Below, in pieces: positions 26,888 to 45,281 of a stretch of 64,000 bases of DNA. Positions within the stretch are counted from its first letter, which is position 1, and every line of letters starts with the position of its first letter. Both the position numbers and the translations under genes were made by a program. The DNA is from Streptomyces profundus (GTDB taxonomy: Bacteria > Actinomycetota > Actinomycetes > Streptomycetales > Streptomycetaceae). The notes beneath the pieces were generated by a model, which ran no database searches, had not been told where the DNA came from, and saw only the letters and a program-made list of their open reading frames with translations. The stretch spans positions 4,958,501-5,022,500 of the forward strand of contig NZ_CP082362.1 of NCBI RefSeq assembly GCF_020740535.1, written 5' to 3'.

Positions 26888-27685
26888 TCAGTGGGGCGAA
26901 ACAGTCGCGAAGTGCTTAAGGAGCAGTGTCGTGCCGTCCCGCGCCATAAGTCGTGATTGGGATTCCCTGCCTTTCTCGTTTTGTTTGCTTTCGCTATGCT
27001 GCGATATGGTTGCAAGACAGCCTCGGTAGCGTTCCCCGGTGTGCCGCTCGGCGAGGTCGTGCAGGGTCAACCGACCGTCAGGGGGGCGGAGCGCCGGATC
27101 CATCTCCCGGATCGCGGGCGGCTCGTGGGCGAGCGAGACCACCAGCCGGGCCGGCGGCTGCGCGAGGCCCACGCCCAACGCCTTGAGCGCGGCCTCTTTG
27201 CGTGCCCACACCACGGCGAACGCCGCCGCCCGCGCCTCCGGCGCCAGCGCGAGCAGCGCCGCCGCCTCGGCCGGCGCCAGCGCGGACGTCAACACGCCCC
27301 CGTCCGGCGACAGATCGATGTCCTGGTCGATCTCCGCGATGTCCAGGCCGAGCGGCGCCGGCCCCACCGCCACCCCGACGCGCCCGCCGGAGTGCGAGAC
27401 GGACAGCCCGAGCCAGGCGTACCGTTCCGGCAGCCGTGGCCGGCCGTGTGGGCCACCGCAGTCCGGGCACCCGGAGGTCAGCGGCACCAGCCGGGCCGGC
27501 AGGTCCAGCCACCGTCCCAGCACCAGCCGCAGCAGCGCCCGCCCGGTCAGATAGCGGTCGGCCGCCGCCGGCACCCGGTAGCGGTCGAGCCGGGCCAACT
27601 CGTCGGGGGCCAGCAGCTCGCGCAGCGCCGGGTCCGCGTCCCCGGGCGCGGCCCACCACAGCTCGAACCCCGGCCCCGTGCTCAC
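26888..27685 (-). CDS. 4'-phosphopantetheinyl transferase (Sfp type)
   Basis: 265 residues. Activates acyl carrier proteins by transferring the phosphopantetheine arm of CoA to the ACP serine. Family motifs: GRALLRLVLGRWL, LSVSHSGGRVGVAV, LGLDIAEID (metal-binding Asp 115) and FAVVWARKEAALKALG (Glu 164 in the WxxKEA motif). The GTG at 27685 overlaps the stop of the KR-DH gene (GTGA). After about residue 227 the protein carries a ~38-residue tail (SQHSESKQNEKGRESQSRLM...) absent from typical Sfp proteins and lower in GC, as if an older stop was lost. Last gene of the PKS operon; its obvious target is the ACP at residue 449 of the 37509-39005 product. Confidence 0.92.
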   Translation of the reverse strand: MSTGPGFELWWAAPGDADPALRELLAPDELARLDRYRVPAAADRYLTGRALLRLVLGRWLDLPARLVPLTSGCPDCGGPHGRPRLPERYAWLGLSVSHSGGRVGVAVGPAPLGLDIAEIDQDIDLSPDGGVLTSALAPAEAAALLALAPEARAAAFAVVWARKEAALKALGVGLAQPPARLVVSLAHEPPAIREMDPALRPPDGRLTLHDLAERHTGERYRGCLATISQHSESKQNEKGRESQSRLMARDGTTLLLKHFATVSPH

Positions 27686-30078
27686 GGCGTCTCCGACACC
27701 CAGCGGGCGCCCAGGAGTTCGGCCACCTCGCCGCCGTCCGCCGCCAACACCCGGTGGGTGGAACCGGCCAGGGACAGCGCCGTGGCCCGGCGGTCCAGGC
27801 CGGTCAGCCGCAGCCGCTCGGCCCGCCACAGCTCGCCGCGCCTGGCGCCGGGCGCCACCGGCGAGACGGCGACGGCGGCCTCAAGGGCGGCGCTCGGCAG
27901 CCGGGGGTGCGGCGGGTCGACCAGGGCGAACCACTCCGAGGGGCGGATCGGCTCCACCTCGGCCCGCCAGCCGTCAAGGTCCCGCCAGGGGCTGACGGAC
28001 ACGAGGTACGGCAGCCAGTCGTAGCCCTGTCCATCGGCCGCTGGCTGGTCGGTCCGCTCGGCAGGCGCCGGCGCCCCCTCGCCCCCCGACGTGGGGGAGC
28101 CGGCTGACGTGGGGGAGCTGGCCGGCACCGTCAACAGCACGGTGGCCTCGGCGGCCACCGCGCCCCGCCGGCGGAGCGTCACCCGGGCGCCGCGCAGCGG
28201 TGTGGTCGCCAACTCCGGGCGGTGCACGGTGCCGGGCTCAAGACGTACCTCGCGCGTGAGGTCGAGCGTCCCGCCGTCGAGGCGGAGCGCGCCCGGCCGG
28301 ACGGCGATGTCGCACAGCGCCACGGCGGTGGCGGGCTCGCCGCCGGGAACCAGCCAGCCGGCGCCGTCCAGCAGGTACTCCAGGGCCAGGGACAGCGGCA
28401 GCCCCGGCGCCCCCGCCACCCGCACCTCGTCCAGGCAGCTGGCCCAGGTCGGGTCCAGCCGATGCTCGGTGACCACGGTGGCGGTGGGCGCGTAGGTGAT
28501 GACCTCGCCCAGGAAGAAGCGTCGGCTCAACATCCCGGTGCGCCCGCGCCAGTCGGAGGGGACCGCGATGCCCCGCAGATGCTGTGGGGCGACCAGCCCG
28601 ATCTCGCCCATGAAGCAGACCTCGCCGCTGCCCTCCCTGGTGATCTCGGCGAGCCAGGCGTCCACGCCGTCCGCCACGCCGATCGGCGTCATATAGCGGG
28701 ACGCCGCGTCGAGGTTGGTGATCAGCCCCACCCCGTCCCAGGTCGGCCAGGCCAGGACCTTGACCGGATGGGACCGCCGCTGACCGGCGCGGAGCGCCAG
28801 CCGGGCCAGGCCCTCGTTGGCCGCGGCGTAGTCGGTCTGGCCCACCATGCCGCCGTAGCGGCCGGTGAGCGAGCCCACGGCGCAGAGCATCTTCAACGGG
28901 GCGTCGGCCAGGGCCGCCAGCAGATGCAGGAAGCCGTCGACCTTGACGCCGATGACCTGCCGGAACTGGTCGACGGACTTGCCCCGCAACCGTTTCGGCA
29001 GGTCGATGCCGGCGTTGTGCACCACCACGGAAAGGCCAGGTCCGGCCGCCCGCACCAGCGCCGCGACCTGCTCCGGATCGGTCACCTCGCAGGCGTGGTA
29101 GGCGAGTTCGGCGCCCGCCAGCCGGGCCCGCTCCAGGTTGTGGTGCACCTCGCGCAGCTGCGCCATCCGGCCCAGGCGGCGGCGCACCGCGTGCAGCGGC
29201 TCGTCCGGGTCGCGCTCGGCGTAGGCCCGCCGCTCCAGGGCGGCGAACGCCTCGGCGGAGGCGACGAGCCAGTCGGGCCGGTCCGCGGGCAGCGGGGTCC
29301 GGCCGCTGACCAGCACCCGGCAGCCGGTGCGCAGCGCCACCGCCAGCGCGAACTCGAAGCCGATGCCCCGGGCGCCGCCGGTCATCAACAGCACGTCGTC
29401 CGGGGTCAGATCGATCGGCTTGCCGTCGATCTCGGTGGCGTGCGCCAGCAGCGCGTGCCGCCCCTCGGCGGTGTGCCCGACCTCAAGCAGCCGGCCGCCC
29501 AGCAGCTCGGCGACGGCGGCCGGGCCCGGGTCGACGGAAGGGGCCAGGTCCAACACCCGCACATCGCAGGCGGGGAACTCGCGGGGCAGGGTCTTGGCCA
29601 GGCCCGCCCAGAGCCCGCCGAGCGGCTGGGCGTCGGGGACGTCGGTCAGGCCCATCGCGCCGCCCAGCGAGGTCACCGCCAGATAGTGCAGCCGGCGGGC
29701 GTCCGACTCCCGCGCCCAGTCCTCGTAGACGTGGTGGAGCGCGGTCACGGTGCGGTCCATCGCGGCGTGCCAGGCGCCCGCGGCCACCGGCGTGCCGGCG
29801 GGCAGGCCGCCGTCCACGATGGCGTCGACGGGGCCGTCCACATCCGGCCCGCCGGCCGCCTCGTCCCAGCCCGCCGGCCGGCCGCCGTGGGCCCGCACGG
29901 CGGCCCGCACCGACGTCAGGAACCGGTCGTCGCCGCCCAGCACCAGCACGGTGCGGCCGGCCAACGCGTCCTCGGCCGGCGCCGGTTGGGCGGGGAGCGG
30001 CGCCAGGCTCATCAGGTGCCGCAGGATGGGCGCCTTGTCGACTCCCCCGGCGCGCGGTGCGGCGGTCGGCTCAGCCAT
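27682..30078 (-). CDS. PUFA/hglE-type ketoreductase with inactive-looking dehydratase domain
   Basis: 798 residues. Residues 40-215 are the structural half of a polyketide/PUFA-type KR (LAGRTVLVLGGDD, LHYLAVTSLGGAMGL, LGGLWAGLAKTLPREFP). Residues 228-480 are the catalytic SDR half: TGGARGIGF, Lys379, Ser403 (VGSLTGR) and Tyr417 in TDYAAANEG, all present. Residues about 515-790 form a double-hotdog DH-like region. Where active DH domains have HxxxGxPxLPG this one reads EVRVAGAPGLPLS, so the catalytic His is a Val, and the second-half Asp is not conserved either. It probably reduces a beta-keto acyl group on the partner ACP; the DH may be structural or bind product. Overlaps the P450 gene by 8 bases and the PPTase gene by 4. 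Confidence 0.85.
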   Translation of the reverse strand: MAEPTAAPRAGGVDKAPILRHLMSLAPLPAQPAPAEDALAGRTVLVLGGDDRFLTSVRAAVRAHGGRPAGWDEAAGGPDVDGPVDAIVDGGLPAGTPVAAGAWHAAMDRTVTALHHVYEDWARESDARRLHYLAVTSLGGAMGLTDVPDAQPLGGLWAGLAKTLPREFPACDVRVLDLAPSVDPGPAAVAELLGGRLLEVGHTAEGRHALLAHATEIDGKPIDLTPDDVLLMTGGARGIGFEFALAVALRTGCRVLVSGRTPLPADRPDWLVASAEAFAALERRAYAERDPDEPLHAVRRRLGRMAQLREVHHNLERARLAGAELAYHACEVTDPEQVAALVRAAGPGLSVVVHNAGIDLPKRLRGKSVDQFRQVIGVKVDGFLHLLAALADAPLKMLCAVGSLTGRYGGMVGQTDYAAANEGLARLALRAGQRRSHPVKVLAWPTWDGVGLITNLDAASRYMTPIGVADGVDAWLAEITREGSGEVCFMGEIGLVAPQHLRGIAVPSDWRGRTGMLSRRFFLGEVITYAPTATVVTEHRLDPTWASCLDEVRVAGAPGLPLSLALEYLLDGAGWLVPGGEPATAVALCDIAVRPGALRLDGGTLDLTREVRLEPGTVHRPELATTPLRGARVTLRRRGAVAAEATVLLTVPASSPTSAGSPTSGGEGAPAPAERTDQPAADGQGYDWLPYLVSVSPWRDLDGWRAEVEPIRPSEWFALVDPPHPRLPSAALEAAVAVSPVAPGARRGELWRAERLRLTGLDRRATALSLAGSTHRVLAADGGEVAELLGARWVSETP

Positions 30079-31462
30079 GCGCGGATCCGCCCTCGCGCGG
30101 TCGTAGCCGCACCCACATCTCGCTCATCGGACGCAGCGAGATCAACGAGTCGCCGAAGCGCGTCAGATCGCCCGGCACCGGCTCCAGGCGGAACCGCTGG
30201 GTCACCATGGCCAGGATGATCTTCAGTTCCAGCAGCGCCATCATGTTGCCCACGCACATCCGTGGCCCGCCGCCGAAGGGGAAGTAGGCCGTCTTGGGGC
30301 GCTCCTTGACCGCGCTCGGGGTGAACCGCAGGGGGTCGAACGCCTCCGGGTTCTCCCAGACCGCCGGGTTGCGGTGGGAGACCAGCGGGGAGAGCAGGAG
30401 CGAGCTGCCGCCCGGGATGTGGTAGCCGTCGAGGGTGTCGTCCTCGACGGCGTCCCTCGGGTAGAGCCAGATCGGCGGGTAGAGCCGCAGGCTCTCCTCG
30501 ATCACCATCCGGGTGTAGTCCAGCGTGGGCAGGTCCTCCTCGGCGGGCGCCCTGCCGTCCAGCACCCCGCTCAGCTCGCCCTCCAACTCCTCCCGCACCC
30601 AGCGGTGGGCGGCGACGGAGTGCAGCATCCAGCAGGCGGCGGTGGCGGTGGTCTCGTGGCCGGCCAGATAGATGGTGAGCAACTCGTCGCGGATCTCCTG
30701 GTCCGTCCACGGCTCGCCGGTCTCCGGGTCGCGGGCCTCCTCGGCGAGGCGCACCAACACCCCCTCGCCGGTGGCCGAGTGGCGCTCCCTGATGTCGGAG
30801 ACGACCTGGTCGTAGATCCGGCGGTTCTTCTTGATCAGGCGGTTGCGCGCGGTCGGCATCCACTGCGGGAGCATCTCGCTCAGATAGCCGTGCGGGAACA
30901 TCACCTCGATGCTCTCGTCGACGACCTGCTTGAGCAGCGGGGTGCGGGACCTGATGTCGTAGCCGAAGAGCGACTGGCTGAGCGTCACCAGCGTCAGCCG
31001 CATCATCTCGGCGACCAGGTCGACCGGTTCGCCCGCGCGCTCGGCGGCCTCCCAGCGCTCCAGCATCTCGCTGGTCGCCTCGATCACGTTGGGGATGATC
31101 GCCTCGATCGCCTTCTTGGCGAACGCCGGCTGCACCGCCCTGCGGTGGCCGCGCCAGTAGCGGCCGTCGGAGGTGAGCAGCCCGGTGCCCATCACCAGCT
31201 TGAACTGGTCGTAGAGCTTGCCGCGCACGTAGTTGCCCTGGTTCTCCATCAGCACCCGGCGCACCGCGTCCGGCGAGGTGGCCAGGTGCACGGTGTAGGG
31301 GCCCATCCGCATGCGGCTCAACTCGCCGTGGTCGCGCTGGAGCCGCAGCAGGAACTGCGCCGGGTCCCGGCGGTAGGGGACGAGGCTGCCGAAGCCCGGC
31401 GTGCCGCGCGGGCCCGGGGCGGTGCGGGTGGCGGTGTCGGTGTTGGCGGCGGTGCTGGTCAT
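30071..31462 (-). CDS. Cytochrome P450
   Basis: 463 residues. I-helix AGHETTA, ExxR in EESLRLYPP, and heme loop FPFGGGPRMCVG with the thiolate Cys at about 403. There is no fused reductase, so it depends on separate electron-transfer proteins; no ferredoxin gene is visible in this cluster. The sequence style (PGPRGTPGFGSL start, WRGHRRAVQPAF) is like bacterial CYPs that act on fatty-acid or terpene-like chains. The ATG at 31462 overlaps the stop of the 2001-residue PKS (ATGA), which ties it to the polyketide pathway; it most likely oxidises the acyl product. Regiochemistry unknown. Confidence 0.93.
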   Translation of the reverse strand: MTSTAANTDTATRTAPGPRGTPGFGSLVPYRRDPAQFLLRLQRDHGELSRMRMGPYTVHLATSPDAVRRVLMENQGNYVRGKLYDQFKLVMGTGLLTSDGRYWRGHRRAVQPAFAKKAIEAIIPNVIEATSEMLERWEAAERAGEPVDLVAEMMRLTLVTLSQSLFGYDIRSRTPLLKQVVDESIEVMFPHGYLSEMLPQWMPTARNRLIKKNRRIYDQVVSDIRERHSATGEGVLVRLAEEARDPETGEPWTDQEIRDELLTIYLAGHETTATAACWMLHSVAAHRWVREELEGELSGVLDGRAPAEEDLPTLDYTRMVIEESLRLYPPIWLYPRDAVEDDTLDGYHIPGGSSLLLSPLVSHRNPAVWENPEAFDPLRFTPSAVKERPKTAYFPFGGGPRMCVGNMMALLELKIILAMVTQRFRLEPVPGDLTRFGDSLISLRPMSEMWVRLRPREGGSAHG

Positions 31463-34400
31463 AGCGGCAGGGCTCCGATCCGATGGGCTTCCCGTGACGG
31501 GTCCGCCAGGTTCTCCACGGTGGCCCGGTCCACGGGCAGACCGGTGAGGGAGTCGATATAGCCGAGCGCGAAGCCGGACACGTCCTGCATCTGGAGCAGC
31601 ATCGTGCCGTCGGGCAGGGTGGCGGTGAACCTGCTGGCCAGGCCGCTCCCTTCGAGCAGCAGCCCGCGGGGAGTGGCCGACAGCTCGATCTCGACGCCCC
31701 GCTGGCCCAACTCCACGTCGTTGTCCGGGACATAGAGGTCGATCCGGCGGATGCCGCTGGGCGCGGCGACCGGAACGTAGTGCTCGGCGACCAGTTCGAG
31801 GACCGCCAGCCTGGCCATGCCGTCGAGCATCAGGCTGGGGACGAGGAACCGCTCGTAGACGCTGCCAGGGGCCACCGGCGCGGTGTAGCGCGCCCGCTTG
31901 CCCAGCGGGTGCAGCCGGGTGTCAGCCGTGGTGACGAACGCCCCGGACAGGTACACGGAGGCGCCGTCGGCGTGGTACGGGTCCATGATGGGCGTCTCGT
32001 CGGCCGCCGGCCAGGGCTCCCAGCGGGGGGCCGCCGGGTGCCGGTCGGCCAGCACCACGGTGGCGCTGAAGTGCTGCTTGTCGCGGGTCAGCACGACGCC
32101 CTGGGGCGAGACCACGTCGCCGGTGACCTTGACGGTGACGACCGCCTGGGTGGCGTCCCGGCGCAGCAGGGTGGCGGCGATCCGGCGCGGGCTGCGGTCG
32201 GTGGTGCCGCCCAGCCGGAGGAAGTGGTCGAACGTCACGTTGCGGAAGCCGACCACCTTCAGCTCCGGCACCAGCTCCAGCGCGGCCTCGGCGGCGAGCT
32301 CCGTGACGAAACAGCCGGGCAGGGTGGGTATCCCGCGCACGGTGTGTTCACGCAGGTATGCGTCCCGTTCGTCGAACTGTCGCTCCACGACCAGGGAACG
32401 CTCGTTCTCGCGCACCACCCGGTCGATATAGAAGCGGCCCTTGCCGGTGGCGACCGGCTCCGGGGCGCGGCGTGGGGCGAAGTAGCCGGGGATCATCTGT
32501 TCCATGGCGGCCCGTTCCACGTCGCCCAGGTGGTGGGTGACGGGGGCCCGCTCGGCGGCCTCCAGCTCGGCGAGGAAGTGGCGCACCCCCTCGGCGGTGG
32601 GCATCAGGGTGAGCACGTTGGCCATCTCGCCGGCGCTGAAGAAGGACTGGTGCACCTCGCTCGACGCCATGCCCACCTCCTTCCACAGCGTCCAGCCGAT
32701 GGCGAACTCGCCCTGCCCGGCCGTGGTGTTGTGCAGCGCGGCGGTGCCCAGGAAGTCGTTGCTGGCCGCGTAGTCGGTCTCGCCGAGCTGGCCGGTGAGT
32801 CCGATCAGCGAGGCGAAGGAGCACCAGGTGCGCGGCAGCCGGCCGCGGAGCGCGCGCCGCAGGTTGAGGTAGCCGCCGGCCTTGACGGAGCGCACCTCGC
32901 GGAAGTGCGCGAGCGGCTTGGTGGCCAGCGCCCCCGCGCGGTTGACGCCGGCGGCGTGGATCAGCAGGTCGATCGTGCCGTGTGCCGCGCCGACCCGGTC
33001 GAAGGCGGCGGTCAGCTGCTCGGCGTCCAGCACGTCGGCCCGCAGGTAGTGGACCCGGCCTGGGCCGCAGTGCCGTTCCATCTCGGCCAGGTTCCGCAGG
33101 ATCTCGGCCGCGCCGGCCAGCTGCTCGTACTCGTGGGTGATCTCCCGCACCGGGCGGCCCGGTTCCCGAGCCATCGCCTCCCGCAGGAACTCCACCCGGC
33201 TGGGCAGCGCGTCGGGCCCGCCGTAGCCGGTGATCCGGTCGGTCAGCTCGGCGACCGGCTTGGTGCCCAGGGCGTAGATCACCGGCCGGTAGCGCCGGGC
33301 CACCGCCTTGAGCAACTCGGAGGTGATGCCCCGGCCGCCGCCGGTGGCCACCACCACGCTGCGGGCGTCCAGCGGCGGGACGGGCCCCGGCCCGGGCGCC
33401 GGCGCCTCCTCGGTCACCAGGGTGTGCCGCAGCCCGTCCGTGTAGACGGCCACCGGCAGCAGCTGGGTGGCCCGCGACTCCGCCACCAACTCGTCGAGCA
33501 CGGTGGGGAGGTGGCCGCTGGTGCTGAGCACGCCGGCGACCACCAGGCCGGAGAGTTCGAGCGACGCGCTCTTCAACAGGCCGGTGAACAGGCCGGCGAA
33601 CGGGTGCGCCACCCGGCGCCGCGCGTCGAACGCGCCGGCGAACGCCGCGAGCACGGTGCCCCGGTGGGCACGCAGCGCGGGCTCGCACGCCTGGAGGGTC
33701 AGGAAGAGGGCGTCCTGGAGCCGGAAATAGGGCTCGGGGTCCTCGTCCAGGGCGCTTTCGGCGACGGCGGGCCCTGAGAGGTCGGTGACGAGCCTGACGT
33801 GCCGGACCGACGCCAGCTCGGCGCCGAGCGCCGCGCGCACCGAGTCCCGGGAGATCTCCTCCAGGGTGCGCCGGCGCACTCCCTCGGTCGGCACCGTGGA
33901 GAGCACCAGCGGGTCGTCGGGGCGGGTGCCCAACTCGCCGAGCAGCTCCGGGGTCCCGGTGATCACCACGGCGTCGGCCGGCAGCGGATCGGCCGCCGGG
34001 CGCACCCCGTCGTTGGCGGTGGGCCGCCAGTGCGCGACATGCCGGCGCACCAGGTCCCCCGGCGTCTCGGCGGCGTCGTTGTCGAGAGGGTAGTCGGGAG
34101 CGTTGTCGAAACCCTCGTCGAGGGCGTTGTCGAAGGCGAGGTCGAGCGAGAGCGGCCGGTCGCCCGGGCCGTCGCCGGCCACCACCACGGCGCGCCGCGC
34201 GCCTTCGGACTCGCCGTGGTGCAGCGCGCGCAGCAGCGCCACCGCCGAGTCCGCGCCCAGATAGCGCGGCGCCTCGTGGGCGGGGTGCGCGGCGCCGGCG
34301 GGGAAGGCCACGGCGTCGCCGGTGTGCTCCTCGCCGCTCAGCCGCCCGAGGCGGGCGAGCACCGGGAGGCCGGCGGCCCTGGCGGTGCCCCGGCGGGTCA

Positions 34401-37400
34401 GCGCGAACATGAAGGCGCCTTCGGCCAGTTCGACATCGGGGACGCCCAGCAGCTCGCTCGCCAGCCGGGTCATCACCCGGGTCGAGTTGCCGTTGACGCC
34501 GCCCACCAGCGCCACGTCCACATCGTGGGCGCGCAGATAGCGGGCGCCCACCTCGAAGGAGCCGAGCGCCGAACCGAAGCCCAGGTCGACGGTGAGGTTG
34601 GGCCCCTTGAGGTCGAAGTAGTTGGAGACCCTGGCCGAGATGACGTTGGGCATGATCCCGGGGAACGAGTCCTCGTTGGACGGCTGCACGCCCTCGCGCA
34701 CCGCCTCGCGGAGGGCCGCGGTGATCCGCTCGTCCAGCGCCACGTCGCCGGGCAGCCCGCCGAGCGCGGTGAGGGCGTTGTCGAGGTGGCAGCGCTTGCC
34801 GTAGAGCACGGCGTGCCGGGTCGGGCCCATGTGTCCGAGGAACACCCCGGTCCTGGCGCGGTGTTCGTTCCACAGCCCCTCGCCGAATGAGTCCCGCAGC
34901 TCCTGGGCGCAGCGCAGCACCATCAGCTGGCAGCGGTCCAGGGTGCGCAGCACCTTGGGGGGCATTCGCAGCCCCATTCCCGCGTAGTCGTAGGCGGCGC
35001 CGAAGCTGGTCCCTGGTGCCGGTCCGGTGCCGGCGAGCCAGCCGCGCACCGCGTTCGCGTCGGCGAGCCCGGGCAGGTGCGCCGACCAGGCGGTGACCAC
35101 GATCTCCTCGTCCGCTGACGCGTCGTCGGCGGCCGGCGGCCGGGGCTGGGCGGCGGGCCGGTCCTGCACCATCAGATGGGCGTTGGTGCCGCCGAAGCCG
35201 AACCCGGAGACGGAGGCCACCCGGGCCCGCGCGGGGTCGGCCGGCCAGGCCACGGCCTCGGTCGGCACCCGCAGCCCCGCGTCGTCGAGGCCGTAGGCGC
35301 CGGGGCTCCGGGCGAAGTGGTGCTGCGGCAGGATGGTGTTCTTCCGGAAGCTCTGGAGCACCTGGATCAGCGAGACCACGCCCGCGGCCCAACCGGTGTG
35401 CCCGATCAGGGACTTGTTGGAGGTCACATAGGTCGGCTCGGTGCCGGCCATGGTCTGCCTGATGCTGGTGATCTCGCAGAGGTCGCCCGCGGGCGTTCCG
35501 GTGGCGTGGGCGACCACCCAGTCGGGACGCCGCTCGGGGTCGGGTGCCTTGGCCAGGGCCCGCTCGATGGCCAGTTTCTGGCCGACGGTGTTCGGTGCGT
35601 AGATGGCCTTGCCCTTGCCGTCGGACGAGGTGCCGATGGCGGAGACATAGCCGAGGATCTCGTCCCCGTCGCGGCGGGCCAGGTCGAGCCGCTTGAGGGT
35701 GACGGCGGCGGCGCCGTCGGAGAAGAGCACGCCGTCGGCGTCCTGGTCCAGCGGACGTAGCCGGCCGCTGACCGACAGGCCGTGCAGCTTGGCGAAGAGC
35801 ACGGCGTTGCGCGGCCCCACGGCGAAGCTGCCGCCGCAGACGGCGGCGTCGTGCCGGCCCTCCAGGATGCCCTTGATGGCGATGTCCACGGCGTAGAGCG
35901 CGGAGGAGCAGGCGGTGTCCACCATCAGCGTCTCGGTGCCGTCCGGCAGCAGCCCCGCGACCGAGCGGTTGCCCACCTGGTAGGGCAGCAGGGTGGTCAA
36001 CTCGGCGCGGTGCAGCGGGTAGTGGTCCTCCAGCGCGGTCCTGGCCGAGCTGGCGAGGCGGGCGCGCCGAGCCTGGTCCCAGCCGGCGGCCACGCCCGCG
36101 CGGTCCAGGTCCTCCAGGAGGCTGTCCAACACCAGGGCTTCCTCAAGGTGTTGGTTGCCGTCTGCGGTGTAGCCGATGACGCAGGAGAGCCGGTCGGCCG
36201 CGGGCAGCCGCACCCCTTCCAGCGCCTCGTAGACGGCGTGCCGGAACCACTGGGTGGTGTAGTCGGTGCGGCGGCGGTCCTCGCCGAGTTCGGCGGCGAG
36301 CCCGGGGTGCGGGACGTAGTCGTCCACATAGCCGGAGCGCACCTGGTACGTCTTGTCCTCGGCGGCGACATCGGCCGAGTAGAACGCCTCGCTGCGGAAG
36401 CGGTCGGGGCGGTCGCCGTCCAACAGGTCGGGGCCCTCGGCCAGCAACCGCCAGAACTCCTCGGGGTTGTTGGCGCCCGGCACCACCAGGCCCATGCCCA
36501 CCACGGCGATGGTGGCCCGCTCGGCGTCCAGCACATCGGCGGAGGGCTCCAGCACCGGAGCCGGCTCGTTGACGCGCAGGGCGGCGCGCGACGGGGGCGC
36601 GGGCGCCGGCGCGGCCTTCGGGGCGGGCGCGGGCGCGGCAGACTCGACGGCCGGGCGTTCGTCGCCCTCGGCGCGGGTGTGCCAGTGGCTCGGCGGGGTG
36701 AGCATGGCGCCGCCCAGGGAGAGGCCCCCGTCGGCGACGATGGTCTGTCCGGTGATCCAACTCGACGCGTCCGAGAGGAGGAACAGCACCACCTCGGCCA
36801 GCTCCTCGGGACGCCCCAGCCGGCCCAGCGGGGTGTTGCGCGCCACCTGCCGGTGCATCTCCTCCGGGCTGGGGAAGAGGTTGGCGACATCCCCCTCGAT
36901 CAGGCCACCGGACGCGGTGTTCACCCGGATGTTGGAGGCGGCGAACTCGACGGCCAGATAGCGGCTGAGGGACTCCACGGCCGCCTTGGCGGTGCCGACC
37001 GTCACGTAGTTGCCCACGGTCAGGCCGGCGCCCACCGATGACAGGTTGACGATGGCCCCGCCACCGGCCGCCCGCAGCAGCGGCTCGGCCCGCTGGGCAC
37101 ACCACAGCGCGCCCTTGAGGTTGACGTCGAGAGAACGGTCGAACGCCCCGTCGTCGGTCTCCGCCACCCGGGCGAAGGAGCCGCTGGCGGCGTTGTTGAC
37201 GAGGAAGTCGAGCCGGTCGTGGCGTTGCAGGATGTCGTCGAACATCCGGTCGACCTGCTCCCGCTTGCCCACCGAGGCCCGGACGATCTCGATCGTGAGT
37301 CCGCGCTCGGCCAGCTCGGAGCGGAACCGCTTGGCCTCCGCGAAGGAGTGGAAGCAGTTGACGATGACATGGGCGCCGAGTTCCGCGAGCCGGGTCGTGA

Positions 37401-37508: not shown

Positions 37509-39005
37509 TCAGGAGGCGACGCGCACCGCGGTCGGAGCCTCCAGGACCATGTCGGCGATCCGGCCGAACGTGGCGTACTCGGAGATGTTGAACTCCTCGG
37601 GCTGCGGCGGGAGTTCGTACTGCTTGGCGACCCGGCCCAGGAGGTCGGTCTGCTTCACCGAGTCCACCCCCAGATCCGCCTCCAGCATCACGTCCTCGGT
37701 GAACACCTCGGCCGGGTACTCCAGCGCGGTGCCGTACAGCTCGGCCAGCTCCGCGAGCACGGTGGGCCGGTCCAGGGCCTGCCGCGCCCGCTCGGGCGCC
37801 GCCGGCCCGGCCGAGCCGGCCGGCTCGGGAACGACGGCCAACGGGACGCTCACCGGCTCCGGTTCGGCGACCGGTTCCACCAGCTCGGCGACCACCTCCC
37901 GGCCGGTGAAGCGGTCGTAGGACTGACGGATGGCGCGCAGGGTGGCTATGCCCTCGGACTGCCAGAACCTGTCGAACTCGGTCGCGTCCTCGCCCAGCAG
38001 GCGCCGCACGGCGGAACGCAACTGGTCGTTGCCGCCGTTGGCCAGCCGGACGATGTCGTCCAGCGAGGTGCCCCGCCGTCCGCTCTCGTCCACGGTCACC
38101 GCGGTCCAGCCCGACTCGTCGGCCAGGACCTTCCGCACCAGGTCGGTCAGCGTCTGCCGGCCGCCGCACTCGACGAACAGCTCCGCCCCGTCCGCCCGCG
38201 CGTGCCGCACCGCCTCGGGGAAGTCGAACGGGGTCACCAGGTGCCGCGCCAGCAGCTCGGCGAAGTCGTCGCCCTCCTCGTAACGGCGCCGCAGGATGGG
38301 GGAGTAGACCGCGACGTCGGGCGTGGTCCAGCGGATGTCGGCCAGCGCCTCGGCGAAACCGGCCGCCGCGTCGGCCAGCACCGGGCTGTGGAACGGGTAG
38401 GGCGAGTCGAGCCGGACGGCCGTCACCCCGGCCTGGCGCAGCAGCTCCTGGGCCATCCGCATCGGCTCGGTCGAACCGGAGAGCACCACCTGCTCGTCCG
38501 TGTTCACCCCGGCCACCGCGACCGCGTCGTCGTTGAGGAAGGTCAGCAGGCCCTCGGCGCGCTGCGCGCTGGTCCGCACCGCCAGCATCAGCCCGTCGGA
38601 CCGCTCCAGCGCGGCGAGCGCGCGGACGCGCCGGGCCACGATGCGCGTGCCGTCCTCGACGGAACACGCGCCGGCGGCGGTCAGCGCGGCGATCTCACCG
38701 AAGCTGTGCCCCACGTGCAGCGACGCCACCACGCCGTCCTTGCGCAGCGCCTGGGCGGAGGCGACCGAGGCGGCGAAGATCGCCACCTGAAGCAGGTCGG
38801 GCGCGTTCCTCAGCAGCGCCGAGAGGTCCGTGGCGCGGTCGTCCACCAGGGACTTCAGGTCGACGCCCAACTCCTCCTTCGCCACCTGGTGCACGGCGTC
38901 GACGACCTCTTCGACAACCGGGGAACGATCGGCCAGCCGGGCCAGAATGCCCGGTGCGTAGCCACCTTGGCCTGGAAACAACAGAGTGGTCGGTGCGAGA
39001 GACAT
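37509..39005 (-). CDS. Acyltransferase-ACP protein for the iterative PKS
   Basis: 498 residues, ATG at 39005. Residues 5-310 are a malonyl-transferase-type AT: LLFPGQGG, GHSFGE (Ser101), and YPFHS at 203-207, where the Phe favours malonyl over methylmalonyl extender units. Residues 335-410 are a helical region and a Val/Glu/Pro linker. Residues about 415-490 are one ACP with LGVDSVKQTDLL; Ser449 is the phosphopantetheine site, and the DSVK form resembles PUFA-synthase ACPs rather than modular PKS ones. There is one ACP, whereas PUFA synthases have several in tandem. First gene of the minus-strand operon; supplies the AT and ACP missing from the 2001-residue partner. Confidence 0.92.
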   Translation of the reverse strand: MSLAPTTLLFPGQGGYAPGILARLADRSPVVEEVVDAVHQVAKEELGVDLKSLVDDRATDLSALLRNAPDLLQVAIFAASVASAQALRKDGVVASLHVGHSFGEIAALTAAGACSVEDGTRIVARRVRALAALERSDGLMLAVRTSAQRAEGLLTFLNDDAVAVAGVNTDEQVVLSGSTEPMRMAQELLRQAGVTAVRLDSPYPFHSPVLADAAAGFAEALADIRWTTPDVAVYSPILRRRYEEGDDFAELLARHLVTPFDFPEAVRHARADGAELFVECGGRQTLTDLVRKVLADESGWTAVTVDESGRRGTSLDDIVRLANGGNDQLRSAVRRLLGEDATEFDRFWQSEGIATLRAIRQSYDRFTGREVVAELVEPVAEPEPVSVPLAVVPEPAGSAGPAAPERARQALDRPTVLAELAELYGTALEYPAEVFTEDVMLEADLGVDSVKQTDLLGRVAKQYELPPQPEEFNISEYATFGRIADMVLEAPTAVRVAS

Positions 39006-39500: not shown

Positions 39501-40868
39501 ATGTACGACGTGATTGTGGTGGGCGCTCGCTGCGCCGGCTCACCCACGGCAATGCTGTTGGCCCGCCAGGGGCATCGGGTGCTGCTGTTGGACCGGGCGA
39601 CCTTTCCCAGCGACCATCCGCTCTCCACCCACCTGGTGCACCCGCCGACCATCATGCGGCTGGCGCGCTGGGGGCTGCTGGACGAGCTGCGGGCCACCGG
39701 CTGCCCGCCGATCCACGAGTACGGCCTGGCCTGTGGCCCGGTGGACCTGATGGCGCCGCTGCCGCCGGCCGGTGACATCGACGTGGCCTACGCGCCGCGT
39801 CGCCGGCTGCTGGACGACATCCTCGTCCGCGCCGCCGTCGCCGCCGGCGCCGAACTGCGCGAGGGCGTCTCCGTGCAGGAGCTGCTCACCGACGTCTCGG
39901 GCGCGGTGGTGGGGGTCAGGGGGAAGACCAAGGACGGCACAACCGTCGAGGAGCGCGCCAGGGTCGTGGTGGGCGCGGACGGCACCCGCTCCCGGGTGGC
40001 GCAACTCGTCGGCGCCCAGGAGTACCACACCAGGCCGCCGCTGCTGACCAGCTACTGGAGCTACTTCGCCGGGCTCGCCGTCAAGGACGTGCCCACCTTC
40101 CGCGCCAACCAGAAGTACGGCTTCGCCTGGCCCACCAACGACAACCTGGTGCTGGTCGGGATGGCCTGGCGCAGCCAGGACTTCAAGCGGCTGTCCGGCG
40201 GTGCCGACGACGTCTTCCTCCCCGCCTTCGACGAGATCGCGCCCGACTTCGCCGAGCGGCTGCGCGACGCCGAGCGCGCCGAGCGCTGGATGAGCGGCTC
40301 GGTGCCCAACTTCTTCCGCACCTCGCACGGCCCCGGCTGGGCACTGGTGGGCGACGCCGGCTACAGCCGCGACCCGTGCACCGCCTCCGGGATCACCGAG
40401 GCCACCCGCGCCGCCGACTTCCTGGCCGAGGCGCTGCACGCGGGCCTCAGCGGCGCCCGGCCGATGGCCGAGGCGCTGGCCGACTACCAGCGCCGCCGGG
40501 ACGCCCACAGCCGCCCGTTCTACGAGTACACCTGCGACTTCGCCACCCTGGACGACTACGCGCCGGACGTGCTCCAGCTGTTGGACGCCGCCACCCGCAG
40601 CGACTGGCACGCGGCCGGGCTCTCCGGTCTCTTCGCCCAGACCATGACGCCCCAGGAGTTCTTCTCCATCGACAGCATGACCCGGCTGCTGACGGGCCCG
40701 CAGGGCCGCGAACTGTCACACTGGCGGCTGCGCGCGCTGCGCACCCTGGTCGCCGGCCGCACCGGGAGGACCCGCTGGGCGCGCGGTCTGGGCCAGCGTC
40801 TGGTGCATGGCCGGCTCGGGCCGCTCGGCGGCTACCTCTCCGGCGAGCCGTCCCCCCACCCGTCGTAG
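39501..40868 (+). CDS. FAD-dependent oxidoreductase (geranylgeranyl-reductase/monooxygenase-like)
   Basis: 455 residues, ATG at 39501. N-terminal FAD-binding Rossmann motif VVGARCAGSPTAMLLARQG followed by VLLLDRATFPSDHPLSTHLV; second FAD motif GWALVGDAGYSRDPCTASGI with TEATRAADFL. This is the group that includes aromatic hydroxylases, halogenase relatives and geranylgeranyl reductases. There is no lysine-containing GWxWxIP halogenase signature. First gene of the plus arm, so probably an oxidation or double-bond reduction step on the cluster product. Followed at 51 bases by a SnoaL-like gene. Confidence 0.85.
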   Translation: MYDVIVVGARCAGSPTAMLLARQGHRVLLLDRATFPSDHPLSTHLVHPPTIMRLARWGLLDELRATGCPPIHEYGLACGPVDLMAPLPPAGDIDVAYAPRRRLLDDILVRAAVAAGAELREGVSVQELLTDVSGAVVGVRGKTKDGTTVEERARVVVGADGTRSRVAQLVGAQEYHTRPPLLTSYWSYFAGLAVKDVPTFRANQKYGFAWPTNDNLVLVGMAWRSQDFKRLSGGADDVFLPAFDEIAPDFAERLRDAERAERWMSGSVPNFFRTSHGPGWALVGDAGYSRDPCTASGITEATRAADFLAEALHAGLSGARPMAEALADYQRRRDAHSRPFYEYTCDFATLDDYAPDVLQLLDAATRSDWHAAGLSGLFAQTMTPQEFFSIDSMTRLLTGPQGRELSHWRLRALRTLVAGRTGRTRWARGLGQRLVHGRLGPLGGYLSGEPSPHPS

Positions 40869-40919
40869 CCCGGCTCCGGCCACCGGCGCCGCGTGCGATC
40901 CGAACTCGAAGGAAACCCC

Positions 40920-41414
40920 GTGTACCACACCATCGTCGCCGCCAAGGTCCGTGCCACCTTCCGCCGGATCAACGAGGGCGACTACCAGCCGGTGCTCGAC
41001 TCGTTCGCCCCCACCTTCCGCTACCACTTCTACGGGGAGCACGCGCTCGGTGGCACGCGGACCACGCTCCCCGCGATGCGCCGGTGGTGGGAGCGGGTCT
41101 TCCGGCTGATTCCCGACGGCCGGTTCGAGGTCCGTGAGGTGCTGGTCAAGGGCTGGCCCTGGCGCACCACGGTCGCGCTGCACGCGGTGATCACCGCCCC
41201 GCTGCCGGACGGCGACACCTACCAGAACGACATGCACCAGTTCCTCCGGATGCGCTGGGGGCGGATCACCGAGGTCCGCACCATGGAGGACCTCGGGCGG
41301 CTGCGACACGCGCTGGACGTGGTCGCCGCGCACGGGAACGACGAGGCCCACGCCGACCCGATCACGGACCGGGAAGACGAGCGGCCCACCACCGACCGAC
41401 CGGCCGCGCGCTGA
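40920..41414 (+). CDS. SnoaL/NTF2-like protein (1)
   Basis: 164 residues. The GTG at 40920 follows GAAGGA and is preferred over a GTG at 40893. The NTF2-like cone fold is visible as VRATFRRINEGDYQPVLDSF, FRYHFYGEHALGGTR, MRRWWERVFRLIPDGRFEV and HQFLRMRWGRITEVRTMEDL. The family includes polyketide cyclases, isomerases and dehydratases as well as non-enzymes. A hydrophilic charged tail ends the protein. Together with the second copy at 41505 it suggests a cyclisation or isomerisation step; inference from family and context. Confidence 0.82.
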   Translation: MYHTIVAAKVRATFRRINEGDYQPVLDSFAPTFRYHFYGEHALGGTRTTLPAMRRWWERVFRLIPDGRFEVREVLVKGWPWRTTVALHAVITAPLPDGDTYQNDMHQFLRMRWGRITEVRTMEDLGRLRHALDVVAAHGNDEAHADPITDREDERPTTDRPAAR

Positions 41415-41418: not shown

Positions 41419-41465
41419 CGTTCACGGCACCACCCGGGCGGCCCGCCCGGGTGGTGCCGTGAACG
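41419..41465 (+). terminator. Perfect 23-bp inverted repeat between the two SnoaL-like genes
   Basis: The arm at 41419-41441 (begins CGTTCACGGCACCACC) is the exact reverse complement of 41443-41465 with one central base, so the loop would be three bases. It starts five bases after the stop of the first SnoaL-like gene. There is no T-tract. It could end or attenuate transcription within the operon, or stabilise the upstream mRNA. Confidence 0.7.
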
Positions 41466-41504
41466 AACGCCGGAGCGCCGGGCACTGGACCAAGGAGAAA
41501 CCGG

Positions 41505-41966
41505 ATGTTTCTTTTTCACGCCTTCGTGCGGAGGGTGACCGTGCCCCTGCTGTACTGGCACGTGTCCCGGGGGCGCAGCTGGATGGTGCTCGCGCTGTGC
41601 ACAGGGGACGTGCGCAACAGCGCCGATGGGGACAGCTGCCTGGGCGGCGCGCGTACCGGACGTCGCTCCTACGGCGCCTGGTTCGGGCGGATGTTCCGCC
41701 TCACCCGCTCCATCCGGCCGCGCGCCACCGAGGTGCGGGTCGAGGGGTCGCCGATCCGGTCCACCGTGGTGGTGCGCTGGACGGACCCGGTCACCGCGCA
41801 CGACGGCGTGGTGTTTCCCAACGAGGGCGTGCACACCCTCACGCTGCGCTGGGGGCGGATCGCCACCGTGCACCAGGCGTGGGACGAGAGCGTGGTCCGC
41901 AAGGCGTGCGAACACGCCGCGGCGCTCGGCTACCAGGAGGCCACCGAACCGCCCCTGACCTCCTGA
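41505..41966 (+). CDS. SnoaL/NTF2-like protein (2)
   Basis: 153 residues; the ATG at 41505 follows AAGGAGA. It shares the layout of the preceding protein (FHAFVRRVTVPLLYWHVSRG, DSCLGGARTGRRSYGAWFGR, EGVHTLTLRWGRIATVHQAW) but is clearly diverged, and the N-terminal helices are more hydrophobic. The acidic or His residues used by catalytic SnoaL proteins cannot be assigned with confidence by eye. Encoded between the 23-bp hairpin and the MMPL exporter gene. Confidence 0.75.
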   Translation: MFLFHAFVRRVTVPLLYWHVSRGRSWMVLALCTGDVRNSADGDSCLGGARTGRRSYGAWFGRMFRLTRSIRPRATEVRVEGSPIRSTVVVRWTDPVTAHDGVVFPNEGVHTLTLRWGRIATVHQAWDESVVRKACEHAAALGYQEATEPPLTS

Positions 41967-42055
41967 CCCCTCGGCCGGGGCGGGCCCGCCGCGCCCCGAG
42001 TTCCCACGCCTGACCACCCGTGACCTACCTACTCGCAGCACACCCGGGGGAAGAG

Positions 42056-44371
42056 ATGTTGAGCAGCTGGGGCCAGTTGGTGGCCCGCCGCAAGAAGCTG
42101 GTCCTGCTGGCCGCGCTCCTGTTCACGGCCCTCGCCGGCGCGCTCGGCGGCGGCGTCGCCGACGCGCTGGCCGCCGGCGGCTACACGGACGAGGACTCCT
42201 CGTCCGCCCGCGCCTCGGCCACCCTCGGCGAGCGCTTCGCCACCGGCGAGGCCAACCTGGTGCTGCTGGTGGACACCCCCGAAGGGGTGGACGCCCCGGC
42301 CGCGGCCACGGCGGGCCGCGAGCTGACGAAAGCGCTCGCCGCCGAGGAGGAGATCGCCTACGCCGAGTCCTACTGGACCCTGGGCCAGGCCCCCGCGCTG
42401 CGCTCAGCCGACGGCGAGTCCGCGCTGGTGCTGGCCCGCATCGTGGGCGACGAGACCGAGGCGCAGAACAGCGTCGGCGCGCTCGCCGAGCGGTACGAGG
42501 GCGAACGCGACGGCCTCGACATCCGCGTCGGCGGCGAGGCACAGGTGGCCGTCGAGATCAACGAGCAGACGCAACGCGACCTGCTGCGCGCCGAGTTGAT
42601 CATCGCCCCGGTGGTGATGGTCATCCTGCTGCTGGTCTTCCGCAGCCTGGTCGCCGCCGCGTTGCCGCTGGCCATCGCCGCCGTGGCCGTGCCGGGCACC
42701 ATGCTCATCCTCTATACCCTGACGCTCTTCACCGACGTCTCCTTCCTGGCCATGAACGTCACCATCGGTCTGGGACTCGGACTCTCCATCGACTACAGCC
42801 TCTTCGTGGTCAGCCGCTACCGCGAGGAGTTGGAGCGCGGCCTCGCCGTGCCGGACGCCATCGCCGCCGCGCTGGCCACCGCCGGCCGCACGGTCGCCTT
42901 CTCCGCGCTCACCGTGATGCTCTCCCTGGCCGGCCTGTTGGTCTTTCCGCTGTACTTCCTGCGCTCCTTCGCGTACGCCGGCATGGCCGTCACCCTGTTC
43001 GCCGCCGCCGCCGCGCTCGTGGTGCTGCCCGCGCTGCTGGCGCTCGTCGGCCCCCGCATCGACGCGCTCCCGGTGCTGCGCCGCCGACGCCCCGTCGTGT
43101 CCACCCGGCCCGGCTTCTGGCACCGGCTCGCCACCTTCATCATGCGCCGCCCGATCCCCATGGCCACCGGCGTGATCGCGCTTTTGCTGGTGCTGGGTTC
43201 GCCGTTCCTGCGGATCGAGTTCTCCCAGGCGGACGACCGGGTGCTGCCCGAATCCGCCGAGGCGCACCAGATCTCGGAGACCATCCGCCAGGACTTCCCC
43301 ACCCGGGAGGCCGAGAGCCTCGACGTGGTCGCCTACCAGCCGGTGGACGAGGCCGCGTCCGACGGCTCCGAGGCGCTCGCCGACTATGCGACGCGGCTCT
43401 CCGAGGTCCCGCACGTCAGCCGGGTCGACGCGCTCACCGGCAGCTACGCGGACGGTGAACAGCTCGCGGGGCCAGGCCCGTTCGCCCAGCGGCACGCCGC
43501 GACCGACGGCTCGGCCAGCGTGCTGACCGTCGTCCCCGAGGTCGACCCGTTCAGCCCGGAGGCCGAGGAACTGGTGACCGCGCTGCGCGCCACCGGAGCG
43601 GCGTTCGACGTGGACATCACCGGGCCGGCCGCGGAGTTCCGGGACACCATGGACGCGCTGGGCGACTCGCTGCCGCTGGCCCTCGGCATCGTCGCCCTGG
43701 CGACCTTCGTGCTGCTCTTCCTGTTCACCGGCGGCCTGCTGCTGCCGCTCAAGGCGCTGGTGATCAACGCGCTCAGCCTGAGCGCCACGTTCGGCGCCAT
43801 GGTCTGGGTCTTCCAGGAGGGCCATCTGCGCTGGCTGGTCGGCGACTTCATCCTCACCGGCGGGATCATCGCACCGGTCCCGGTGCTGGTGCTCTGCATC
43901 GCCTTCGGCCTGTCCATGGACTACGAGGTGTTCCTGCTGTCCCGGATCAAGGAGGAGTACGACCGGCACGGCGACAACACCACGGCGGTCGCGGTGGGCC
44001 TGGAGCGCACCGGGCGGCTGGTCTCGGCCGCCGCGCTGCTGGTCGCCGTGGTCTTCATCGCCTTCATCTCCTCCGGGATCACCTACGTCAAGCTGCTGGG
44101 CCTGGGCCTCGCCCTGGCCGTGCTGATGGACGCGACGCTGATCAGGGGCGTGCTGGTGCCGGCCTTCATGCGGGTGGCTGGCCGCGCCAACTGGTGGGCC
44201 CCCGGGCCGCTGCGCAGGGCGCACGCCAGGATCGGGCTGAGCGAGTCCGCGCCGCCCCTGGCCGGGGAGCCCCGGGAGCCCAGCGGCTCCGATGACGCGC
44301 CCGAGCGCGAGCGCGCCGACACCACGACGGCGTCCTCGGCTTCGTCCGCTTCCTCTTCCGCGTCCTCCTGA
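42056..44371 (+). CDS. MMPL-family (RND) transporter
   Basis: 771 residues from the ATG at 42056, which follows GGGGGAAGAG; a GTG at 42020 is in frame but lacks a site. Two repeated halves, each with one helix, a large outside loop and about five more helices: LVLLAALLFTALAGALGGGV, ELIIAPVVMVILLLVFRSLV, MNVTIGLGLGLSIDYSLFVV in half one, and PMATGVIALLLVLGSPFL, IVALATFVLLFLFTGGLLLP, LCIAFGLSMDYEVFLLSRIK in half two. The GLSIDY and GLSMDY motifs carry the proton-relay residues of MmpL proteins. These export lipids and lipid-like metabolites. The C-terminus ends in a Ser-rich stretch. Placed in the plus arm, it probably exports the cluster product. Confidence 0.95.
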   Translation: MLSSWGQLVARRKKLVLLAALLFTALAGALGGGVADALAAGGYTDEDSSSARASATLGERFATGEANLVLLVDTPEGVDAPAAATAGRELTKALAAEEEIAYAESYWTLGQAPALRSADGESALVLARIVGDETEAQNSVGALAERYEGERDGLDIRVGGEAQVAVEINEQTQRDLLRAELIIAPVVMVILLLVFRSLVAAALPLAIAAVAVPGTMLILYTLTLFTDVSFLAMNVTIGLGLGLSIDYSLFVVSRYREELERGLAVPDAIAAALATAGRTVAFSALTVMLSLAGLLVFPLYFLRSFAYAGMAVTLFAAAAALVVLPALLALVGPRIDALPVLRRRRPVVSTRPGFWHRLATFIMRRPIPMATGVIALLLVLGSPFLRIEFSQADDRVLPESAEAHQISETIRQDFPTREAESLDVVAYQPVDEAASDGSEALADYATRLSEVPHVSRVDALTGSYADGEQLAGPGPFAQRHAATDGSASVLTVVPEVDPFSPEAEELVTALRATGAAFDVDITGPAAEFRDTMDALGDSLPLALGIVALATFVLLFLFTGGLLLPLKALVINALSLSATFGAMVWVFQEGHLRWLVGDFILTGGIIAPVPVLVLCIAFGLSMDYEVFLLSRIKEEYDRHGDNTTAVAVGLERTGRLVSAAALLVAVVFIAFISSGITYVKLLGLGLALAVLMDATLIRGVLVPAFMRVAGRANWWAPGPLRRAHARIGLSESAPPLAGEPREPSGSDDAPERERADTTTASSASSASSSASS

Positions 44372-44378
44372 GCGGCCG

Positions 44379-45281
44379 ATGCCCACCGACCAGGGCGCGC
44401 CCGCGCGCGCCGCGCTTGTCACCGGCTGCTCCTCCGGCATCGGCAGGGCCACGGCGCTGGCCCTGCACCGCGCCGGACATCGGGTCTACGCCACGGCCCG
44501 CCGCCCCGAGGACCTGGCCGAGCTCACCGCGCTCGGGCCCCGCCCACTGGCCCTCGACGTCACCGACGAGCCCACCATGGTCGCCGCGGTGGACGAGGTG
44601 GTGCGGCGGCACGGAGCCGTCACCACGCTGGTCAACTGCGCCGGCTACGGGCTCTCCGGCACCGTGGAGGAGGAGCGACTGGACGCGGTGCGGGACCAGT
44701 TCGAGACCAATGTGTTCGGCCTCGCCCGCCTCACCCAGCTGGTACTCCCCGGCATGCGCGCCCAGGGCCACGGCACCGTGATCAACATGTCGTCCATCTT
44801 CGGCCGCTACGCCGTGCCGGGCGGCGGCTTCTACCACGCCTCCAAGCACGCCCTTGAGGCGCTGAGCGACGCCCTGCGGTTGGAGGTCGCGCCCTTCGGG
44901 ATCCGGGTGGTCCTGGTGGAGCCGGGCCCGGTGCGCACCCGGTTCGGCGCGCGCTATGTGGCCGGTCTCCACCCGGCGGCCGGGGGCTCGCCTGACCCTG
45001 GCTCGCATCCGCCGGGGGAGAACGGCCCCTACGGGGACTTCCGGCGCCGGAGCGCCGCGTACTACGAGGCGGTCTTCCACGGCGGCCGACGTTCGCTGGC
45101 CGGCTCCCTGGTCGTGAGCCCCGAGGACGTGGCACGGGTGGTCCTCCGGGCGGCGCGCGCCCGGCGCCCGCGCGCCCGTTACCGGGTCGGGCTGCTGGCG
45201 CGCACCACCGTGGGAATGCGCCGGGTCCTGCCCGACCGCGCGTTCGACGTGTTCGTGCGCCGTCAGTTCCCGGTGCCGTGA
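44379..45281 (+). CDS. Short-chain dehydrogenase/reductase
   Basis: 300 residues, ATG at 44379, seven bases after the MMPL stop. Classical SDR: TGCSSGIGRATALALHRAGH, NCAGYGLSG, Ser in NMSSIFG and YHASK catalytic motif. The C-terminal half has the longer loop and RARYRVGLLARTTVGMRRVL segment found in SDRs acting on acyl or steroid-like substrates. Last gene of the plus arm of the cluster; likely an oxidation/reduction step on the product or its precursor. Confidence 0.9.
   Translation: MPTDQGAPARAALVTGCSSGIGRATALALHRAGHRVYATARRPEDLAELTALGPRPLALDVTDEPTMVAAVDEVVRRHGAVTTLVNCAGYGLSGTVEEERLDAVRDQFETNVFGLARLTQLVLPGMRAQGHGTVINMSSIFGRYAVPGGGFYHASKHALEALSDALRLEVAPFGIRVVLVEPGPVRTRFGARYVAGLHPAAGGSPDPGSHPPGENGPYGDFRRRSAAYYEAVFHGGRRSLAGSLVVSPEDVARVVLRAARARRPRARYRVGLLARTTVGMRRVLPDRAFDVFVRRQFPVP

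Follow-up and report, generated by a model that had tools for sequence, protein, structure and literature searches.

A ten-gene cluster of Streptomyces profundus, located in a 64,000-nucleotide stretch (the window) of its 7.65-Mb, single-contig genome, probably encodes an iterative type I polyketide synthase (PKS) system of a family distinct from the PUFA synthases. It would make a partly reduced polyene chain that is oxidized by a cytochrome P450 and, where the plus-strand operon is present, decorated and exported. With a core that also turns up in distantly related soil bacteria, the cluster looks like a member of a recognizable but little-described family, and we assign it as a variant among the iterative type I PKSs with a ketosynthase (KS)-CLF pair, not as a PUFA or heterocyst-glycolipid (hgl) synthase, the latter being compared by description only.

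All ten reading frames are intact and lie where they were placed by an earlier reading of the letters alone (the sequence-only reading), whose gene content and divergent operon layout agree with our frame check, the Pfam matches and the coupled minus-strand junctions (Table 1). The minus operon is transcribed in the order AT-ACP protein, 2001-aa synthase, P450, second ketoreductase (KR) protein and 4'-phosphopantetheinyl transferase (PPTase). We consider these genes coupled because the first junction has a gap of 44 bp and the others are an ATGA overlap (synthase and P450), an 8 bp overlap (P450 and second KR protein) and a GTGA overlap (second KR protein and PPTase). The PPTase is more likely to start at the GTG at 27685 than at 27829. 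The plus operon (39501-45281) diverges from it and encodes the flavoprotein, two SnoaL-like proteins, the MMPL transporter and a short-chain dehydrogenase/reductase (SDR). The SDR frame and the MMPL gene share 80 bp and the SDR domain begins only at about residue 39, so the true start of the SDR may lie later than 44292. To the left of the cluster are two frames without a Pfam match (24954-26638) and, further left, cell-wall hydrolase genes, an amidase and a GH25 (22798-24904). The window also holds a tRNA-Ala at 19620-19693.

Table 1. Genes of the cluster, domains of the core synthase and the right-hand border, in window coordinates
Feature	Position	Strand	Basis and remarks
PPTase	26888..27685	-	Pfam ACPS 8e-13; GTG start at 27685 preferred
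Second KR protein, 798 aa, weakly dehydratase-like tail	27682..30078	-	Pfam KR 1e-20
Cytochrome P450, 463 aa	30071..31462	-	Pfam 8e-82
Core synthase, 2001 aa: FabL-like ER, KS, CLF-like, KR, DH	31459..37464	-	Pfam (adh_short_C2 9e-71; ketoacyl-synt 2e-47, two stretches; KR 1e-32; PKS_DH_N 8e-8), NCBIfam, PDB matches, alignment
Dehydratase (DH) domain with HxxxGxxxxP and LDG	31462..32499	-	PKS_DH_N 8e-8
KR domain, borders approximate	32665..33348	-	Pfam KR 1e-32
CLF-like domain, shortened, without nucleophilic Cys	34090..35079	-	Weak 6riw match, alignment
KS domain, Cys-His-His intact	35158..36513	-	Pfam, alignment
FabL-like enoyl reductase (ER) domain, N-terminal, Y-x6-K	36679..37464	-	NCBIfam FabL, PDB 3oic, motif
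AT-ACP protein, 498 aa: GHSFG acyltransferase (AT), one ACP (DLGVDSVK)	37509..39005	-	Pfam AT 3e-37, ACP 1e-6; motifs
FAD-dependent oxidoreductase, geranylgeranyl-reductase/halogenase superfamily	39501..40868	+	Pfam FAD_binding_3 2e-21; NCBIfam
SnoaL-like (NTF2 fold) protein 1	40893..41414	+	Pfam SnoaL_2
SnoaL-like protein 2, paralogue of protein 1 (31% identity)	41505..41966	+	Pfam SnoaL_2
MMPL/RND transporter, nearest MmpL3	42020..44371	+	Pfam MMPL 4e-82; PDB MmpL3 2e-93
SDR, start uncertain	44292..45281	+	Pfam adh_short 1e-45
leuS	45504..48356	+	Pfam; housekeeping; right-hand cluster boundary

The N-terminal domain of the core synthase (residues 1-262) is predicted to be an SDR-type, FabL-like ER. 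FabL is its best single-domain NCBIfam model (6e-75), the best PDB match, 3oic, extends over the whole domain length (1.3e-53), and the Y-x6-K motif, the catalytic motif of FabL, is kept in all 30 aligned full-length homologues. We call the domain FabL-like rather than FabL because it misses the equivalog cutoff (251.7 of 328 bits); most NCBIfam cutoffs were missed by the cluster proteins. The KS Cys, His and His, the active Tyr of the KR and the catalytic His and Asp of the DH are likewise kept in 30 of 30 aligned homologues, and the nucleophilic Cys is missing at the CLF position in the same number. The CLF-like stretch is collinear with the second KS-like half of 6riw at an i-Evalue of 0.27, which alone is not significant; this structure ("ORF10" in its record), which we take to be the KS-CLF of Moritella PfaC, ranks second among the structural matches of the KS-CLF stretch. 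Domain searches and alignment thus support the KS-CLF pairing and the AT-ACP on a separate protein, as the sequence-only reading had them, and most of its other domain assignments hold as well. The part of the 798-aa protein that it had called DH-like is weak: the tail has no Pfam DH match, resembles the synthase DH at a BLAST E of 0.015 and in none of the 16 aligned rows has the catalytic His. The KR of the same protein is intact in all 16 and is PfaA-KR-like, this being its best match among the NCBIfam models (3e-32).

The nearest solved structures of the P450 are 7wzl, the chloroplast carotenoid hydroxylases 6l8i, 6j94 and 6l8h, and 3dbg. In 12 of 157 homologues a P450 with 43-46% identity to that of the window is fused at the C-terminus of the synthase, the eight named cases being Kitasatospora and Actinacidiphila, and in Paraburkholderia its fusion partner is the second KR protein instead. 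Two distinct fusions argue that the P450 belongs to the synthase machinery and that it would act on a carrier-bound or just-released chain. The flavoprotein of the plus operon belongs to the geranylgeranyl-reductase/halogenase superfamily, a placement that does not name its reaction, and its predicted structure (pLDDT 47) was too poor for a fold search. The SnoaL-like pair matches SnoaL_2 at 3e-15 and 2e-6, and the fold comparison of a SnoaL model gave an ordinary NTF2 fold that does not discriminate among epoxide hydrolases, isomerases and cyclases. The best solved relatives of the MMPL protein are MmpL3-type exporters, yet it stays under the NCBIfam MmpL3 cutoff (381 of 1400 bits); it is one of nine MMPL-like loci in the window genome at E<=1e-40.

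Searching proteins with the 2001-aa synthase, we found 1486 homologues at E<=0.001 among 7986 candidates scored, not all of which are shown to share the FabL-KS-CLF-KR-DH architecture. The matches listed, the best 120 of the 1486, are 1871-2808 aa long, and those named among them come from Streptomyces, Kitasatospora, Actinoplanes, Burkholderia, Paraburkholderia, Paenibacillus, Tumebacillus, Methylocapsa and Chloroflexi; full-length homologues occur in B. pseudomallei, B. oklahomensis and other Burkholderia, and also in Actinoplanes and Paenibacillus. The FabL-like domain is present in 152 of 157 homologues; the other five are without it, so the wider family does not depend strictly on the ER. 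With the 481-aa KS as the query of genome searches, 20 of 199 same-genus genomes, that of the window included, had a match at E<=1e-90, and 8 of 197 in an order-level sample (own included) had one at the stricter E<=1e-115; the AT-ACP protein as query found matches in 6 of 101 genomes at E<=1e-60. We compared 19 of the 20 same-genus loci (17, S. zhaozhouensis and the window; G150, a 7.4-kb contig, was left out), of which 12 have a FabL-type core and seven are of an ER-less type. Within the stretches of about 20 kb compared, in which an apparent absence close to either end could be an artefact, the 12 FabL-type loci contain the second KR protein (12), P450 (11), FAD protein (9), SDR (8), MMPL (4), PPTase (4) and SnoaL-1 (3). 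Kocuria soli has genes for a PPTase-like protein, AT-ACP-ACP, synthase, P450, KR protein, FAD protein, SnoaL and MMPL in one direction, and a plasmid of Paraburkholderia ginsengisoli carries AT-ACP, synthase, the P450-KR fusion, an FMO-type monooxygenase, ABC/FtsX/LolA-like genes and a PPTase. Listed members are mostly named "SDR family oxidoreductase," "beta keto-acyl synthase" or "cytochrome P450," and with such generic names the family is easily missed in genome mining.

The nearest named relatives, S. triticirhizae, S. zhaozhouensis and Streptomyces sp. NBRC 109706 (83-84% identity over the best segment of the 2001-aa protein), all have the cluster adjoining leuS, as in the window. At this site S. 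zhaozhouensis has the complete gene set, S. triticirhizae is without MMPL and SnoaL-2, its SDR adjoining SnoaL-1, and the whole plus operon is missing from NBRC 109706, where window positions 39239 and 45308 map 333 bp apart. Elsewhere in NBRC 109706, the best flavoprotein is 42% identical, with a comparable 43% paralogue present in the window genome too, and the best MMPL is 53% identical, like another paralogue in the window genome. The plus operon is a separable module and, as its presence varies among close relatives, a dedicated exporter is optional and the window strain and its relatives probably make differently decorated versions of the product. The sequence-only reading had given the cluster its own exporter, which is true of only part of the family: two of the three nearest relatives have no MMPL gene at the locus, and MFS or ABC transporters lie near the core in other lineages. 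The natural variants at one site (full, without MMPL, without the plus operon) allow tailoring and export roles to be compared between strains.

To place the KS, we computed two trees. The first had 67 rows: 37 FabL-type, 9 ER-less, 5 PfaA, 2 PfaBC, 6 PfaA-like, 6 modular (six KS from PKS frames of 3.3-15.8 thousand aa in the window genome) and 2 other; eight rows, seven duplicates and one partial KS (L039), had been dropped beforehand. The 37 FabL-type rows, of which 35 have the full FabL-like domain, P0148 half of it and P0149 none, formed one clade (support 99/98), and together with the ER-less rows they split at 100/100 from the PfaA, PfaBC, PfaA-like, modular and other KS. The second tree, of 45 rows, added a Beijerinckia synthase, which is of Type P (PMC3098273), an enediyne-cluster PKS, the Persicobacter Pfa proteins and two plasmid relatives; the FabL-type rows were thinned from 37 to 19, the ER-less from 9 to 6, PfaA from 5 to 3, PfaA-like from 6 to 4 and modular from 6 to 4, and the two other KS were omitted. 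The FabL-type and ER-less rows and the two plasmid relatives again made a clade (100/100), within which the FabL-type rows are no clean clade by themselves and need two changes, not one. The enediyne and PfaBC rows fell outside it, with a support of just 84/44 for the relation of the clade to PfaBC; the enediyne row is one sequence (L087) on a long branch of unsure place, and a further row with a branch of 4.9 (L088_23486) is probably a CLF rather than a KS. The Type P KS stood beside PfaA, weakly (92/28).

Taken together, the parts suggest that one long, partly unsaturated carbon chain is probably built stepwise and then oxidized. The PPTase would arm the ACP, the AT would load malonyl units onto it in trans, and the KS-CLF pair would extend one chain repeatedly. 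The KR and DH, joined by the FabL-like ER in some cycles only, would leave some positions of the chain unsaturated and others saturated, and the P450 would oxidize the chain while it is carried by the synthase or just leaving it. Reduction of a carbonyl, during particular cycles or when the chain is released, may fall to the second KR protein. Where the plus operon is present, its flavoprotein, SnoaL-like proteins and SDR would then decorate the chain and its MMPL protein would export the product. The Pfam searches of the ten cluster proteins showed neither a thioesterase nor any other enzyme for chain release, which counts against this scheme, as do the shortened CLF-like domain with its weak 6riw match, the missed FabL cutoff and the five homologues without the FabL-like domain. 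An iterative acyl or polyketide product, which the sequence-only reading had proposed, is thus the likely output as judged from parts and motifs. That it resembles a polyene is suggested by a presumed link to the thailandenes and by the similarity of the P450 to carotenoid hydroxylases, though neither settles what the product is. An N-terminal SDR-type ER and a repeatedly fused P450 on a KS-CLF synthase would be an unusual route to programmed reduction and on-line oxidation.

We see about an even chance that the cluster and the thailandene (org) PKS of Burkholderia thailandensis are members of one family, the cluster being an Actinobacterial version with different tailoring and the family product a formylated or acidic linear polyene. 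Thailandenes are linear polyenes, formylated or acidic, whose double bonds are both cis and trans (PMC9958762), and a review table names orgA-C as their PKS genes (PMC12838130). The full-length core homologues of the pseudomallei group and other Burkholderia favor this relationship, and the AT-ACP, FabL-KS-CLF-KR-DH and P450-KR proteins of Paraburkholderia are encoded by three consecutive genes, which would fit orgA-C. Against it, a table in PMC10826400 files org under trans-AT PKS, and no B. thailandensis name occurs among the synthase matches listed (two listings, 120 each). As the family is present in the pseudomallei group and there are three PKS genes orgA-C, we infer that org may encode the FabL-KS-CLF-KR-DH architecture; its core is possibly the same, to judge from those homologues and the gene count. 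In the Paraburkholderia relative, the FMO-type monooxygenase and ABC/LolA-like genes replace the FAD/SnoaL/MMPL operon. Among the open-licence papers that literature searches listed, no title or abstract opening described the architecture or its Actinobacterial members, which does not prove absence, and the text of PMC3098273 mentions neither Burkholderia nor P450. We therefore place the cluster among the iterative type I KS-CLF PKSs, with the thailandenes as what may be the nearest described product that can be named. The claim that its domain order was undescribed went too far, since that order is widespread and the org PKS may be a characterized example.

A bolder proposal, which we think rather unlikely, is that the FabL-KS-CLF-KR-DH synthase with its trans AT-ACP, P450 and second KR protein constitutes a separate class of iterative megasynthases, parallel to the PUFA, hgl and enediyne systems and common to Actinobacteria, Firmicutes, Chloroflexi and Proteobacteria. 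The P450 would be built in and oxidation would take place on the synthase, and the flavoprotein/SnoaL operon of Streptomyces would be swappable, giving an oxygen-bridged or otherwise cyclized lipid unlike the thailandenes. In monensin biosynthesis, MonCI epoxidizes the chain and MonBI/MonBII open the epoxides; by analogy, the flavoprotein might epoxidize a polyene and the SnoaL-like pair might open the resulting epoxides, giving a cyclic-ether lipid, a course of events that we hold to be improbable.

We judge it equally improbable that the cluster is a PUFA- or heterocyst-glycolipid-type synthase in pieces whose membrane or envelope lipid is exported by the MMPL protein, although the KS-CLF pair, the rank of 6riw, the PfaA-like KR of the second protein and the nearness of the MMPL protein to MmpL3 speak for it. 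The KS lies outside the PfaA and PfaBC clades and the exporter is not conserved. The core synthase scores 246.6 bits against TIGR02813, far below the cutoff of 1010.1, and the PfaA model has 52 matches in the window genome, mostly in long modular-PKS-like frames, and none above cutoff. A dismantled PUFA synthase, as the sequence-only reading had it under the name PUFA/hglE, is not supported, given this score, the own KS clade, the SDR-type ER, the single active DH and the single ACP.

The PUFA (Pfa) synthases nevertheless share with the cluster, which we take for an iterative type I KS-CLF PKS of its own family, the iterative KS-CLF logic, a PfaA-like KR, a DSVK-type ACP and a dedicated PPTase. 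PfaA combines KS, MAT, 4-6 ACPs and KR on one protein, tandem DH/I domains lie on PfaC and PfaD is a separate ER (PMC3098273), whereas here the AT and a single ACP form a protein of their own, the ER is the N-terminal SDR/FabL-like domain, none of the ten cluster proteins having a Pfam match of the PfaD-like (nitronate-monooxygenase-type) kind, and one DH with His and Asp is accompanied by the weakly DH-like, His-less tail elsewhere. The cluster KS groups with neither the PfaA nor the PfaC KS and has its own clade in both trees. The hgl synthases are, as is presumed here, iterative long-chain lipid PKSs, and they too have a CLF; hglC is KS-CLF-AT and the hgl cluster is without DH/I (PMC3098273), whereas here the CLF is fused to KR-DH, the AT is separate and a DH is present, a distinction drawn from the published domain layout only, with the HglE KS absent from both trees. 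The Azotobacter-type phenolic lipid (Type P) synthases are iterative too, and the Type P KS lies near PfaA, not in the cluster clade. Enediyne PKSEs are iterative KS...KR-DH polyene makers on a single protein (KS-AT-ACP-KR-DH), and the cluster clade excludes the one enediyne KS compared. Modular type I PKSs have KS, AT and ACP in cis, whereas the AT here works in trans and the KS falls outside the six modular KS, in line with the earlier view that this is no ordinary modular type I PKS.

The plus operon varies among close relatives of the window's strain. It is missing in its entirety from the equivalent chromosomal site of Streptomyces sp. NBRC 109706, and in S. triticirhizae both the MMPL gene and SnoaL-2 are absent between SDR and SnoaL-1. 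Beyond the other end of the locus, between the PPTase and an amidase gene, lie two frames without a Pfam match; S. zhaozhouensis carries relatives of both (52% and 73%), and no match to them was found within the stretch read from NBRC 109706. Elsewhere in the window, one 1443-aa open reading frame encodes ComEC-type Competence and lactamase domains together with C-terminal DNA polymerase III delta (HolA) domains; it is either a fusion or two genes sharing one frame.

Positions of the features discussed (L numbers denote stretches from relatives, in their own coordinates)
Feature	Stretch	Position	Strand
Plus-operon site, NBRC 109706 (vs window 39239-45308)	L010	7814-8147	
SDR to SnoaL-1, S. triticirhizae	L008	4103-4405	
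Two frames without Pfam match	Window	24954-26638	-
ComEC/HolA frame	Window	50120-54451	-
Genes past P450, genome G165	L082	4741-8122	
ER-less cluster and following genes	L059	14512-16919	
Plasmid KS stretch, Azospirillum argentinense	L089	6908-18907	

Past the P450 of the cluster in one relative, G165, stand two squalene/phytoene-synthase-family genes and one amine-oxidase-family gene, which we take to be hopanoid-type genes. Genome G027 (L046, L067) encodes a PfaA exceeding the family cut-off about 30 kb or less from its cluster of the FabL type, in which the core synthase has an N-terminal FabL-like ER.

L059 carries a KS-CLF cluster of the related kind without that ER domain; next to come after it are genes for an SDR and a wax ester synthase/DGAT-family protein, which suggests a different, esterified product. 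In the KS tree, the KS of the A. argentinense plasmid branches on a long branch at the base of the clade uniting FabL-type and ER-less synthases; it is adjoined by a PPTase, DUF4345, two SDR genes and two fatty acid desaturases, with an RND efflux pump upstream of the stretch.
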